Below, piece by piece: positions 15,635-21,421 of a DNA stretch of 29,185 nt. Within the stretch, counting starts at the first letter, position 1, and the number at the start of each line of letters is the position of its first letter. Origin of the DNA: a virus; IMG/VR virus record IMGVR_UViG_3300028840_002020, positions 1 to 29,185 of that record; one strand, 5' to 3'. Below the pieces are notes generated by a model. The model was not told the DNA's origin. It did no database searches and worked only from the letters and a program-made list of their open reading frames with translations. Made by a program: the position numbers and the translations under genes.

Positions 15635-16100
15635 AAAGAAACAACCGACGGGGATCGAGGAATGGATGATCCGCGAGGGGGAGATCGCAATCGAGCGCGA
15701 TACCGATCTCTCGGAGGCTAGGTCGATCCAAGATCGCTACGCCTTCGAGGATCTCCGCCGAATGGAGGAAGGCGCGATCACCTCGCGAACAGTGAAGCTC
15801 ACGGTCGGAGGTGTCGACGTATACGCTCACGTCGGCTATGTGGAGGGGCGCGCGGTCCATGTCCGCGTCGACGGGTTCCGCGAAGACGACAACCGGCAAC
15901 GCGCGCCGCTTGAACTCTTGTGCGAGGTGTTGAGCGACGAGCTTCGACGCGGGCTCCTCGACCTCGACGCTATCCTCGCGACGTGGCGCGGGACGCGGTT
16001 CCCTCCCGAGGGACCATGTCCTCAACTCCAAGGTGCGAACGCACACTCGCCGCTCGACGCGATCGGGTGGTATTTCTCGGGGGTGAAACGTGGCTCATAA
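15624..16100 (+). CDS. TSCPD-domain-like protein (ribonucleotide reductase C-terminus relative)
   Basis: GTG 15624, 11 bases inside the resolvase gene with AAGGGG upstream, is the likely start (158 aa). Residues 55-150 follow the TSCPD pattern: a beta-rich start (VKLTVGGVDVYAHVGYVEGRA), a helix ELLCEVLSDELRRGLLDLDAIL, W-RGTRFP, and near the end SPLDAIGWYF where the family has SCPDAI. The signature cysteine is therefore missing; the nearest Cys is at 132. TSCPD domains occur at the C-terminus of class II ribonucleotide reductases and as small free-standing phage proteins. The role here is unclear; no reductase gene is in the window. Confidence 0.55.
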   Translation: MESEKKQPTGIEEWMIREGEIAIERDTDLSEARSIQDRYAFEDLRRMEEGAITSRTVKLTVGGVDVYAHVGYVEGRAVHVRVDGFREDDNRQRAPLELLCEVLSDELRRGLLDLDAILATWRGTRFPPEGPCPQLQGANAHSPLDAIGWYFSGVKRGS

Positions 16101-16875
16101 AATCGAGTGGACAGACAAGACGGCAAACCCCTTTACCGGGTGCGTTCATGGTTGCCCCTACTGTTACGCGAGGAAGTTCTCGAAGCGGCTCGCGGGCAAA
16201 GCGGGAACGGTCTATCACCGACTCGCGGAGAGCGGCGTCGATCCGTTCACTCCCGCTATTCACTTGGACGCGCTCCGCGCCCTCGACGACGAGTTGAGCC
16301 GCTCCCGAAGGTCGAGAAAGATCTTCCTCGGTAGCATGGCGGATTTAGGTTGTCGCTCTCACTGGAAGATCACCGACTGCGATGTCGGCGTTGCGTCGGT
16401 ATCTTCAAGCGTGACGCCCGCGCTGGTACATAGCAGGGTAAAGAAGCTGATCTCTTCCCACCCCTATCACACGTTCCAGATCTTGACGAAGAACCCCGAG
16501 GGGCTCGCGGGCTCATGGCCCCGCAACGCGTGGATCGGCGTTAGCGTAGAGTCGACGAGGGCGGCGTCGCTCCGCGTTCCCGCTCTTCTCGCGCACGTTT
16601 CGAGCGGTTGTCTTTGGGTTTCCGTCGAGCCGCTTCTCGACGAGGACTTCGATCCGTCGGCGCTGGTCGTTGCGGGTCGCGTCCCCGGTTGGATCGTGAT
16701 AGGTGCCGAGACCGGGCGGCGGTCTCCTCGCTCCGCGTCGGAAGCTCTCGCGCTCACCGAGGCGGCGCGGCGGATCTTGGTGTTCGCAAACGAGCAAGGC
16801 ATCCCGGTATTCGTCAAGCGCAACATGCGCGAGCTTGATCTCGGGGAGCATTGGCCGCGGAGGTTCCCGCGATGA
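16090..16875 (+). CDS. DUF5131 phage protein (Gp37/Gp68 family), radical-SAM-like
   Basis: GTG 16090 with GGGGGTGA upstream; 261 residues. IEWTDKTANPFTGCVHGCPYCYARKF has Cys18, Cys22 and Cys25 in the CX3CX2C spacing that binds the 4Fe-4S cluster of radical SAM enzymes. FLGSMADL, FQILTKNPEGL, WIGVSVES, VSVEPLL and WIVIGAETG are the conserved strands of DUF5131, the Gp37/Gp68 family common in phages of GC-rich hosts. Its substrate is unknown; modification of nucleic acid or a small molecule is possible. The gene overlaps neighbours at both ends. Confidence 0.88.
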   Translation: MAHKIEWTDKTANPFTGCVHGCPYCYARKFSKRLAGKAGTVYHRLAESGVDPFTPAIHLDALRALDDELSRSRRSRKIFLGSMADLGCRSHWKITDCDVGVASVSSSVTPALVHSRVKKLISSHPYHTFQILTKNPEGLAGSWPRNAWIGVSVESTRAASLRVPALLAHVSSGCLWVSVEPLLDEDFDPSALVVAGRVPGWIVIGAETGRRSPRSASEALALTEAARRILVFANEQGIPVFVKRNMRELDLGEHWPRRFPR

Positions 16876-17106: not shown

Positions 17107-17847
17107 ATGTCTGATAGAAATTGGTTCGAGATAGTCGGCGAGGGGGTTTCTAGCGTAGAGGCTTATCGTGTAGGCGGGGCGCCCGAGCCCATCGACGTTG
17201 ACGCTATCGCTCAAGCAACGGGCGCGTGGCGTCGTTCGAAAAAGTGGGAGACCGGATGGGGGAATTTTTCCGAGAAGCTCATGTTGGTCGTTACCGAGAT
17301 CGGCGAGGCAAGCGAGGCGGCGGAGGCGGCTCGCAAGTGCTGGCGCGGTTTCATCGAGGGGAGGCGGAGCGACACGAGGGTTCTCGTTCAACTCTTTCAT
17401 GCGGCGGTGAACAACTACGTCGAGGAATGGGTCGACGTCATGGTTCGCTTGTTCGATCTGATCCAAGCGTGCGATCTGGCCCCCCCGTTGCGCTGGCGTG
17501 AATCGTTGCGCGCGCTCTTCAAACCCTTCGCTTTCGAAGGCTCGGAGGCGCCGCTTGATATGGCTATCTCGGGCGGTTTTCTTACATTTCAAAACGAGGC
17601 GATCCGATCGTTGACCGCCGCGATGGAAGTCTTCCGCGACGTCAAGCTCGGTAGCACGCCCGAGAACGGCGTCGCTCCATTCGTAGGACAGGGCGATTCG
17701 ATCGAGATCTTGGCGGGACACCTGTTCGACGTGCTCGACGTATGCGCGCAAGCGATCGCGGCGCTCGGGGAATACTGGCCCACCATTTACGCCGAGAAAA
17801 TGGAGCACAACGAGAAGCGACCAACAAAGCACGGGAGGCAACGATGA
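17107..17847 (+). CDS. MazG-like all-alpha NTP pyrophosphohydrolase
   Basis: The 246-residue product has the EExxE...ExxD style metal site: KLMLVVTEIGEASEA (Glu64, Glu67) and YVEEWVDVMVRLFDL (Glu106/107, Asp110). The tail KMEHNEKRPTKHGRQR carries the NxxRPxxHG ending of phage MazG-like enzymes. The large helical insert between the ExxD helix and that tail makes it longer than a minimal MazG (about 100 residues). It should convert (d)NTPs to monophosphates, perhaps protecting phage DNA synthesis or lowering alarmone-type signals. GAGGT lies just before the ATG, and the next gene overlaps by 4 bases. Confidence 0.82.
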   Translation: MSDRNWFEIVGEGVSSVEAYRVGGAPEPIDVDAIAQATGAWRRSKKWETGWGNFSEKLMLVVTEIGEASEAAEAARKCWRGFIEGRRSDTRVLVQLFHAAVNNYVEEWVDVMVRLFDLIQACDLAPPLRWRESLRALFKPFAFEGSEAPLDMAISGGFLTFQNEAIRSLTAAMEVFRDVKLGSTPENGVAPFVGQGDSIEILAGHLFDVLDVCAQAIAALGEYWPTIYAEKMEHNEKRPTKHGRQR

Positions 17848-18032
17848 GCCTTGAAGTCGACGACATGATCGATCACTTGGGAGAGCTACTCGACGAGCCC
17901 GATTGCCCGCTCACGATCCTCGAACAAGAGTTCGTCGCGGACATGGTCGACAATGTCTCCGAGTTTTGGTTCCCAACCGAAAAACAAGAGGCGTGGATTC
18001 GCGCCCTATACGAGAAGCATGTCGAAGGTTGA
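17844..18032 (+). CDS. small acidic protein
   Basis: ATG 17844 with GGGAGG upstream overlaps the MazG-like stop; 62 residues. It is acidic and helical (DDMIDHLGELLDEPD, LEQEFVADMVDNVSEFW), without known motifs. Coupling to the pyrophosphohydrolase gene is the only clue. Confidence 0.65.
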   Translation: MSLEVDDMIDHLGELLDEPDCPLTILEQEFVADMVDNVSEFWFPTEKQEAWIRALYEKHVEG

Positions 18033-18645
18033 TCCGAAAGAGGTTCGCGAGGAGCGCGCCCTCAACGGCGTTGAGGCGTGGACGATTGTCAAAGGGGTTC
18101 CCCTATGCCTCGTTGACGCTCCGCCCGCTGGCGTGCCGTTCTTGGTGACCTCCGAGGGTGTCAAGTTCGCGGTCGCCGTTGTCGGAGAGGATCGCGCGGT
18201 CAACCTCTTGGCGCTGGCGTGTCCTCACGGATCGCACGGCTCACATCCGAAGGTGCGCGATCGGTTCGCCGAGTTGCGTCGCAAGGTGGCGGAGCGGGGG
18301 CTCGGCGACTTCATTCGCTTCAACGAGAGCGCCGCGGCGGACTGTCCTCTTTGCGGCGGCGCCGAGTGGTTCCCGGTCGACAGCGGTCAAGCGCGGGGGG
18401 TCGTGATCCTCGCTTCCTCGTTCGGGGTATTTCGCGGCGTGCGAATCCCAACCGAGGGAGAGGGTCACGACGCGTTGACCAGCGTCGATGGCTTGGTTAT
18501 GATCAGATCGCTTCTCGCTGGCGCCGCTCCTGCTACGGGCAACGCGCGCGAAGCCCTTGACGCCTCGGCCCTCCCCGTTCCCCCGAGAGAAGCCGAGGCG
18601 TCGTTTTTTTGTTCGTCTAGGAACAACGACAAAGGACAAGGTTAA
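18019..18645 (+). CDS. unknown protein with CxxC pair; 3' end overlaps an sRNA-like unit
   Basis: ATG 18019 lies 14 bases inside the preceding gene; 208 residues to the TAA just before the next ATG. The N-terminal half is beta-rich (GVEAWTIVKGVPLCLVDAP, VKFAVAVVGEDRAVNLL), followed by CPHGSHGSHPKVRDRFAELRRKV and CPLCGGAEW, which may hold a metal. The last about 55 codons run through a promoter-like sequence and a perfect terminator hairpin, giving an Ala/Pro-rich tail that looks unconstrained. Either the gene carries a regulatory RNA in its 3' end or the true protein is shorter in related phages. No family recognised. Confidence 0.65.
   Translation: MSKVDPKEVREERALNGVEAWTIVKGVPLCLVDAPPAGVPFLVTSEGVKFAVAVVGEDRAVNLLALACPHGSHGSHPKVRDRFAELRRKVAERGLGDFIRFNESAAADCPLCGGAEWFPVDSGQARGVVILASSFGVFRGVRIPTEGEGHDALTSVDGLVMIRSLLAGAAPATGNAREALDASALPVPPREAEASFFCSSRNNDKGQG
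18475..18503 (+). promoter_or_regulatory. strong sigma70-like promoter inside a coding region
   Basis: TTGACC (18475-18480) and TATGAT (18498-18503) each match consensus at 5 of 6 positions with an ideal 17-base spacer. Predicted transcription starts near 18510. It lies within the 18019-18645 gene and is the best -35/-10 pair I found in the window. A perfect terminator follows about 100 bases later on the same strand. Confidence 0.5.
18510..18610 (+). ncRNA. candidate small RNA of about 100 nt
   Basis: A transcript from the promoter at 18475-18503 to the T-run at 18604-18610 would be about 100 nt and end in an 11-bp hairpin. This is the arrangement of a classical intrinsic-terminated bacterial sRNA encoded in the 3' end of an mRNA. 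The start is inferred from the -10 position. No family is recognised. The alternative is that the terminator simply ends the upstream operon and the promoter match is chance. Confidence 0.4.
18559..18610 (+). terminator. intrinsic terminator, 11-bp stem and T7
   Basis: GACGCCTCGGC (18559-18569) and GCCGAGGCGTC (18592-18602) are perfectly complementary across a 22-base loop, followed by G and seven T (18604-18610), the only T7 I see in the window. It is a textbook Rho-independent terminator, yet lies 35 bases before the stop of the 18019-18645 gene. Confidence 0.8.
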
Positions 18646-18646
18646 G

Positions 18647-18997
18647 ATGAGCAACGAGACAAACACGCGAATCGAGATCCCCGTTTACTGTCCGCAAGAG
18701 CGCCGCGAGGTCGCGGTGATCGAGTTGCCCCCGACGGTCAAGAGGGGCGACCGTGTCGCGATCGACGGCGGCGTTATCTGGCGCGGCTACGTCCCCAACG
18801 AGGAGCGCTACAAGCTCAAGGGTCCGCCGAACGACGGCGATCTCTTGGTGTGTCCGCATTGTCGCGGCAACCTCGCGCTTCGCGGCGCCGTCGTGATAAC
18901 GAAGCCGCGCACCGAGGGAGGGAAGCGAGAGCGGACGGAACTCCCCGCGGACACCGTCGCGATCGTCGTTGCCGGGACCGGCGTGATCGTCGAGTAG
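18647..18997 (+). CDS. unknown protein with CxxC
   Basis: ATG 18647 is 1 base after the preceding TAA with AAGGACAAGG upstream; 116 residues. It is beta-rich (EVAVIELPPTVKRGDRVAIDGG) with LVCPHCRGNLAL, a likely half zinc ribbon together with the N-terminal Cys, and a valine-rich end (TVAIVVAGTGVIVE). Because a terminator lies just upstream, its expression may depend on read-through. Function unknown. Confidence 0.7.
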   Translation: MSNETNTRIEIPVYCPQERREVAVIELPPTVKRGDRVAIDGGVIWRGYVPNEERYKLKGPPNDGDLLVCPHCRGNLALRGAVVITKPRTEGGKRERTELPADTVAIVVAGTGVIVE

Positions 18998-19005
18998 GGC
19001 GCGCC

Positions 19006-19731
19006 GTGACTACGTGGGGAACGACTCTCGGGGATTGCTCCGAGCTACTAGAAGCAATGGACTCCGCGACGATCGACGCGGTGATCTGCGATCCACCTTA
19101 CGGGACGGCGTCGGAAAGCAAGCGTCAAAAGCGGGGGTCTTCGACGGTGGCGTTCGATTACGGATGGGATCAGGATCTCCCGCTCGCGTGGATCTCGGAG
19201 GCGGCGCGCGTAATGAAACCCGGCGCGTCACTCGTCGCGTTCACCGACACAAAGCGAGTTACCGACTTGTGGCGCGCCATTGCGGACGCTGGCGTTCGTC
19301 CGTTGCAAGTGGCTTACTGGATCAAGTCGAACCCGACGCCTAACCCGCGAAAGAATTTCACGAGCGCGGTCGAGGCAATGATCTTCGCGCGCAAGCGCGG
19401 GAAGGTGATCCATTGGGGCGGCGGCGGAGCGACCCCCAATCTCTTCGAGTGTCCGTCGATAGGCGCCGAGAGCACGGGACACCCCGCGGAAAAGCCGCTC
19501 AAGGTCATGCAATGGATCGTTCGCCTCGTCGCTCCCGTCGGGGGGGTTGTTCTTGATCCGTTCATGGGTTCAGGTTCGACAGGGGTCGCGGCGCTCCGTC
19601 TCGGTCGTTCGTTTGTGGGGCATGAGATCGACCCCGAGTTCTACGCTATTGCAAAGCGAAGGCTCCAAGCAGAGGACGGCTCCGAGCCGCTTATAGAGCG
19701 GGCTAGAGCCTCTCAGGGTGAATTGCTATGA
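19006..19731 (+). CDS. beta-class DNA methyltransferase (N6-adenine or N4-cytosine)
   Basis: GTG 19006 is the likely start (241 aa); the open frame continues upstream through the preceding gene but reads as Arg-rich shadow. ICDPPYG (29-32 DPPY) is motif IV, and VLDPFMGSGSTGVAALRLG (184-200) is motif I with the SAM-binding FxGxG, followed by FVGHEID. Motif IV before motif I defines the beta class. A short target-recognition region (about 85-160) makes it compact. HPAEKPLKVMQWIVR is the conserved motif X-like segment. No restriction partner is adjacent, so it is probably an orphan methylase protecting or marking phage DNA. The recognition site cannot be read from sequence. Confidence 0.92.
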   Translation: MTTWGTTLGDCSELLEAMDSATIDAVICDPPYGTASESKRQKRGSSTVAFDYGWDQDLPLAWISEAARVMKPGASLVAFTDTKRVTDLWRAIADAGVRPLQVAYWIKSNPTPNPRKNFTSAVEAMIFARKRGKVIHWGGGGATPNLFECPSIGAESTGHPAEKPLKVMQWIVRLVAPVGGVVLDPFMGSGSTGVAALRLGRSFVGHEIDPEFYAIAKRRLQAEDGSEPLIERARASQGELL

Positions 19732-20144
19732 AGGAATTATTCGACAAGCTCGTCGCCTCTTGGCGCGGTGCGCCTTGGTGGAAAAAGATCCTGATAGGGA
19801 TCGCGATCGTGTTCGTCGCGATCGGTGTCGTTGCAACGGCGGTGTTCTTCCTCGGGCGCAGATCCGACCCGCAAGAGCACGACCCCGCCGTCGACCTCGC
19901 GGTCGGGCGCGGCGACCTCGTCGACGACATGCTCGACGCAAACGAGGCGAGGGATCGGGAACTCGCGGCGGAGGGCGACAGGCTCCGAGAGGAGCGAGAA
20001 GAGATCGAGGACAGGATCGACAACGCGGGAGAGGGTCGAAATGAATTTCATGAAGAGCTTGATCGTGCCGCTGATCGTGGTGACATTGACGGCATTCTCG
20101 CCGCGCGTGATCGGCGACGAGGACACGGGAGCGCCGACGACTAG
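19728..20144 (+). CDS. N-terminally anchored coiled-coil protein, i-spanin-like
   Basis: ATGA overlap with the methylase gene; 138 residues. After a short amphipathic start (MKELFDKLVASWRGAPWWKK) comes one membrane segment (about 20-43, ILIGIAIVFVAIGVVATAVFFLG) and then a long charged coiled coil (DLVDDMLDANEARDRELAAEGD, REEREEIEDRID). N-in topology with a periplasmic coiled coil is the i-spanin (Rz) design. The following gene begins inside it with a secretion signal, echoing the overlapping Rz/Rz1 arrangement. Spanins have little sequence conservation, so the call rests on architecture. Confidence 0.55.
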   Translation: MKELFDKLVASWRGAPWWKKILIGIAIVFVAIGVVATAVFFLGRRSDPQEHDPAVDLAVGRGDLVDDMLDANEARDRELAAEGDRLREEREEIEDRIDNAGEGRNEFHEELDRAADRGDIDGILAARDRRRGHGSADD

Positions 20145-21143: not shown

Positions 21144-21172
21144 TTGACTCGCGTGATCGATGATCGTAAGAT
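21144..21172 (+). promoter_or_regulatory. sigma70-like promoter in a 137-base gap
   Basis: TTGACT (21144-21149, 5 of 6) and TAAGAT (21167-21172, 4 of 6) are 17 bases apart in the longest non-coding gap of the window, which is also visibly A/T-richer than its surroundings. It points at the small gene starting at 21206 and probably drives the downstream block. Upstream in the same gap lies a perfect GAATATATTC palindrome (21097-21106). Confidence 0.6.
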
Positions 21173-21191
21173 CGATCTATTGATTCAATAG
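21169..21191. promoter_or_regulatory. operator-like dyads over the -10 and start region
   Basis: AGATCGATCT (21169-21178) is a perfect palindrome overlapping the -10, and CTATTG-ATT-CAATAG (21177-21191) is a perfect inverted repeat over the predicted start. GATCGAT also occurs at 21157. Two stacked dyads on a promoter suggest control by a dimeric repressor; the regulator is not identified. Confidence 0.45.
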
Positions 21192-21205
21192 GGGGAACGA
21201 GGCAC

Positions 21206-21421
21206 ATGAACTCAATCCGATCGTTGCGAACCGAGTGGCAATTTTCCGTTTGTGTCCCCTCTGATTATCGACAGGATTTCACCGCGTACATAGGCACCGA
21301 CGAGATCGCAGTCCGAGGGCTCGGGCAAACTCCCGAGCCGGTGGCGAGCGTCGAGCCGGTGGCGGAGTTGACGCCCGTCGCCGTGTCCCCGAGGAGACAA
21401 GCCGGATGGCCGAACCTGTAA
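21206..21421 (+). CDS. unknown small protein, first gene after the promoter
   Basis: The 71-residue product has GGGGGAACGAGG upstream of ATG 21206. It is a short soluble protein with a Pro/Val/Glu repeat in the second half (EPVASVEPVAELTPVAV), probably disordered. No family recognised. Its position right after the promoter-operator makes it a leader gene of the block. It overlaps the next gene by 16 bases. Confidence 0.6.
   Translation: MNSIRSLRTEWQFSVCVPSDYRQDFTAYIGTDEIAVRGLGQTPEPVASVEPVAELTPVAVSPRRQAGWPNL

Follow-up and report, generated by a model that had tools for sequence, protein, structure and literature searches.

What is the function of a perfect inverted repeat and a run of thymines that lie inside the 3′ end of a protein-coding frame, one base before the next gene can start? 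The locus that raises this question belongs to a viral record of 29 185 bases from an uncultured source, analysed at its full length and called here the window. An earlier sequence-only reading offered two answers: a small RNA of about 100 nt produced within the gene, or a leaky operon end that controls the methylase gene downstream. The evidence for each is presented below, together with that for three other explanations and for a combination of the two.

Genomic setting of the locus

The record has a G + C content of about 62 per cent, and no tRNA genes were found in any part of it. The likely genes are mostly on the + strand, and their products include topoisomerase-like, RecE-like and RecT-like proteins, a DnaB-like helicase, an endolysin, a DUF5131 protein and a DNA methylase. 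The DUF5131 protein (16090–16875; PF07505, E = 2.7e-28) is encoded in a phage gene cluster. The phage is also represented by another contig (L005), which spans the first 10 kb only and is 100 per cent identical in nearly all the genes that it covers. The features of the locus are as follows.

18019–18645, + strand: gene A, 208 amino acids, no Pfam or PHROG family at E ≤ 0.001; the frame spans the hairpin and the T tract
18475–18503, + strand: promoter-like site TTGACC-17-TATGAT, 10/12 match, predicted start at about 18510
18510–18610, + strand: hypothetical small RNA of 101 nt, deduced from the promoter match and the terminator
18559–18602, + strand: hairpin of intrinsic-terminator type, perfect 11-bp stem and 22-nt loop
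18604–18610, + strand: T7 tract (terminator U tract), expected 3′ end; the only + strand run of at least six T in the window
18647–18997, + strand: gene B, 116 amino acids, with a CPHC motif; one base separates its start from the gene A stop
19006–19731, + strand: N6/N4 DNA methylase (PF01555, E = 3e-34), downstream of the terminator

Gene A ends at 18645 and gene B starts at 18647, which leaves no space for a promoter between them. Transcription of gene B and of the methylase gene would therefore depend on readthrough or on the promoter-like site within gene A. The Shine–Dalgarno-like sequence of gene B, AAAGGACAAGG, sits within the final codons of gene A. The domain matches of gene B are limited to weak zinc-ribbon hits. 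The earlier reading of an operon end before the methylase gene needs one correction: gene B comes first after the hairpin and the methylase second.

At the sensitivities of the searches, no relatives of genes A and B were found in IMG/VR contigs (by a scan that reaches close relatives only), GTDB genomes or phage records, nor any of gene A in plasmids. Searches with genes A and B, the methylase, the pyrophosphatase-like protein encoded upstream and the region 19728–20144 yielded no syntenic relative.

A perfect hairpin and T tract within gene A

The structural elements of the locus were confirmed base by base. The arms GACGCCTCGGC (18559–18569) and GCCGAGGCGTC (18592–18602) form Watson–Crick pairs at all 11 positions, the T7 tract is at 18604–18610 and both, like the promoter match, are on the + strand within the 18019–18645 frame. 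Two details absent from the sequence-only reading are the 22-nt length of the loop, inside which 3 + 2 additional pairs are possible, and a single G (18603) between the stem and the T7 tract. A search of both strands also bore out the claim that this element is the only one of its kind in the window: no other perfect stem of at least 8 bp is followed by at least six T in eight bases. The hairpin is one-directional, the T tract being absent on the opposite strand. A second perfect 11-bp inverted repeat is present at 240–287, inside a VWA-domain frame, with a 26-nt loop and without a T tract.

Folding of 18555–18612 yields −26.7 kcal/mol (z = −5.8), and the estimates of stem stability are about −25 to −27 kcal/mol. 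A d'Aubenton-type score, to be taken as approximate, comes to −4 or +35 according to whether the tail includes the G. No copies of the hairpin were found in other viral contigs.

Two randomizations were used to estimate the rarity of this structure. In 2000 dinucleotide-preserving shuffles of the whole window, a stem of at least 11 bp with a T tract is expected 0.0015 times per window. In the second, the gene A peptide was kept fixed and synonymous codons were resampled according to the phage's own usage. This bears directly on the idea that the hairpin has no regulatory role and is a by-product of the peptide LDASA...EAEAS and of codon choice. The recodings retain on average eight of the 11 stem pairs, and all 11 in 1 per cent of cases, as such a by-product would require; however, hairpin and T7 occur jointly in just 1.9e-4 of them and require the rare codons TTT and GCC, and we regard this explanation as distinctly unlikely. 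Rarity in both shuffles and synonymous recodings indicates that the combination of hairpin and T7 is unlikely to be accidental.

The same elements could also constitute a transcriptional slippage signal, the loss of one U giving an in-frame gene A–gene B protein of about 325 amino acids. The deletion of one T does open a frame from gene A directly into gene B, and a precedent exists in the Roseiflexus IS630 element, where a stem-loop directly upstream of the slippery run drives slippage at a T5C5 motif (PMC5009743). The two cases are alike in that a hairpin immediately precedes a homopolymer run and that a change of frame leads to a longer product. They differ in the slippery motif, which is T7 here instead of T5C5, and in the downstream frame, since gene B is equipped with a start and a ribosome-binding site of its own. 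Moreover, chance alone would probably leave a 12-codon linker free of stops in one of the two other frames, and a fused relative was not found. We consider slippage very improbable.

The promoter-like site and a possible small RNA

The 10/12 match with a 17-base spacer noted earlier is indeed present, with boxes at 18475–18480 (TTGACC) and 18498–18503 (TATGAT), the use of sigma-70-type promoters being assumed. Its significance is another matter: 0.36 such matches are expected per shuffled window, or about one per three windows, and the gene A peptide alone produces a match at the same place in 6.2 per cent of the recodings. The match is ordinary and may well be due to chance. Another site, TTGACT-17-TAAGAT (9/12), lies between genes, at 21144–21205, immediately before the frame that starts at 21206, and is better placed than the one in gene A.

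The association of promoter and terminator is less common than the promoter itself. A 10/12 promoter and a stem with T tract occur within 200 nt of each other in 0.0005 of the shuffled windows. The background of 10/12 sites in phages is 0.10 per kb per strand, so that finding one in the 200 nt that precede any given terminator is an event of about 2 per cent. We also compared the locus with the other fetched loci, a partly redundant set of about 260 kb. The stem-plus-T search of this set identified 18 further elements, some of them in duplicate contigs, or about one per 15 kb. Two distinct terminators among them also have a 10/12 promoter-like site at most 200 nt upstream, and the pairing is therefore not unique to the window. 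A similar layout is seen in Stenotrophomonas phage Suzuki (locus L013, 17440–17610), where a promoter-like site with a 10/12 match ends at 17463, about 110 nt before a 12-bp stem with T6, located between convergent gene blocks.

These data are relevant to the proposal of a discrete RNA of about 101 nt, transcribed from a promoter inside gene A and ending at the terminator. It would be a 3′-derived RNA of type I with other transcripts as targets, perhaps acting through the C-rich loop. The order and spacing of promoter match and terminator are as expected for such a unit, and the low frequencies of their co-occurrence given above are in its favour. Small RNAs of this type whose promoters lie within coding sequence have been described, for example MicL, DapZ and MicX (PMC7821165), and phages encode small RNAs (PMC12197685). 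However, the promoter match is within chance expectation and, as the two comparison phage cases suggest, terminators may often have a promoter-like site close by. In its 5′ half (18510–18556), the putative RNA folds no better than shuffled sequences (z = −0.6). There is no Rfam match at the gathering threshold, the best scores being 12–17 bits against cut-offs of 50–95; the sub-threshold matches to sX13, CcsR1, tfoR and 23S-methyl were rejected as generic hairpin-plus-terminator similarities far under the cut-off. Target prediction, suggested earlier as a check, gave no support: shuffled loops pair equally well with the phage ribosome-binding sites (mean duplex energy −16.1 for the loop versus −16.3 for shuffled loops), and a role of the loop as an anti-Shine–Dalgarno sequence was discarded. 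On balance, we consider the small RNA doubtful. If real, it would be an addition to the few phage RNAs made inside a protein gene.

The promoter at 18475 could instead serve gene B and the methylase, the hairpin being a leader attenuator that some factor of the phage or of its host would relieve. The succession of promoter match, terminator and gene B start, 137 nt past the predicted transcription start, is compatible with such an arrangement. Against it, no antiterminator fold is apparent: about 23 kcal/mol is lost when the stem pairs are forbidden (from −44.3 to −20.8), and the fold of the nascent RNA preceding the 3′ arm is less stable than that of shuffled sequences (z = +0.96). No leader peptide was recognized, and the promoter match is weak evidence, all of which makes attenuation quite improbable.

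A probable intrinsic terminator across the 3′ end of gene A

We propose, with a probability of roughly three in five, that the element is an intrinsic (Rho-independent) terminator at the 3′ end of gene A, leaky or relieved by translation, which divides upstream from downstream expression. Of the two answers offered by the earlier reading, the operon end is the better supported; the RNA of about 100 nt is the weaker, its promoter match being at chance level. The terminator is supported by the rarity of an 11/11 stem with T7, the z-score of −5.8, the uniqueness of the element in the window and its single direction, as well as by the lack of intergenic promoter room between genes A and B and by the occurrence of similar stem-plus-T elements in other phage sequences. 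It is weakened by the 22-nt loop and the G before the T tract, which are not ideal, and by the comparison loci, where a long same-strand frame spans few of the elements and most strong terminators are not spanned.

The in-frame coding potential of gene A stays positive as far as about 18550 and then weakens, as expected where a terminator overlaps a gene end. The tail has a low coding score (0.08 per codon). It was not taken as proven non-coding, since several other genes end at similar or lower scores.

Ribosomes translating across a stem can suppress intrinsic termination. Hairpin and T7 would form a terminator that overlaps gene A over its final 29 codons and at which polymerases coming from the upstream genes would stop in part, at about 18610. 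Readthrough would result either from leakiness or from a ribosome on gene A covering the stem on its way to the stop codon (18643–18645), and the polymerases that read through would continue into gene B and then into the methylase gene. The outcome would be a step-down in expression from the upstream to the downstream genes, possibly dependent on translation. What the analysis shows is the sequence itself, the stem and T tract, their rarity and the arrangement of the genes; termination, leakiness and relief by translation are inferred.

A combination, in which the in-frame terminator both ends a small RNA of about 101 nt and, through the translation of gene A, sets the amount of polymerase reaching the methylase genes, appears very unlikely.

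Directly after the T tract and before the gene B ribosome-binding site, there is a dyad, TTGTTC-GTCTAG-GAACAA (18609–18626), extendable as GTCG...CGAC (18600–18630). An operator is one possible function of this dyad, a small second hairpin another.

For the present, the finding is largely an ordinary one: a single good terminator. If the proposed terminator is confirmed, it would show how a phage with almost no gene spacing grades expression within a cluster, the levels being set by a terminator placed within coding sequence.

Comparison with known systems

The possible small RNA resembles MicL, DapZ and MicX in having a promoter-like site in coding sequence and a terminator at the gene end, and differs from them in a promoter match that is at chance level (PMC7821165). 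Escherichia coli has small RNAs internal to open reading frames, FtsO and mglC int, with which the locus shares a possible short transcript within coding sequence; here the end is a predicted intrinsic terminator (PMC7815308). The present case also differs from both groups in being known from sequence alone.

The closest parallel for the preferred reading is provided by known intrinsic terminators. The element departs from them in its 22-nt loop, in the G before the T tract and in a frame that runs 35 nt beyond the tract; it has in common with them a position at the end of a same-strand gene and a U tract preceded directly by a perfect, GC-rich stem.
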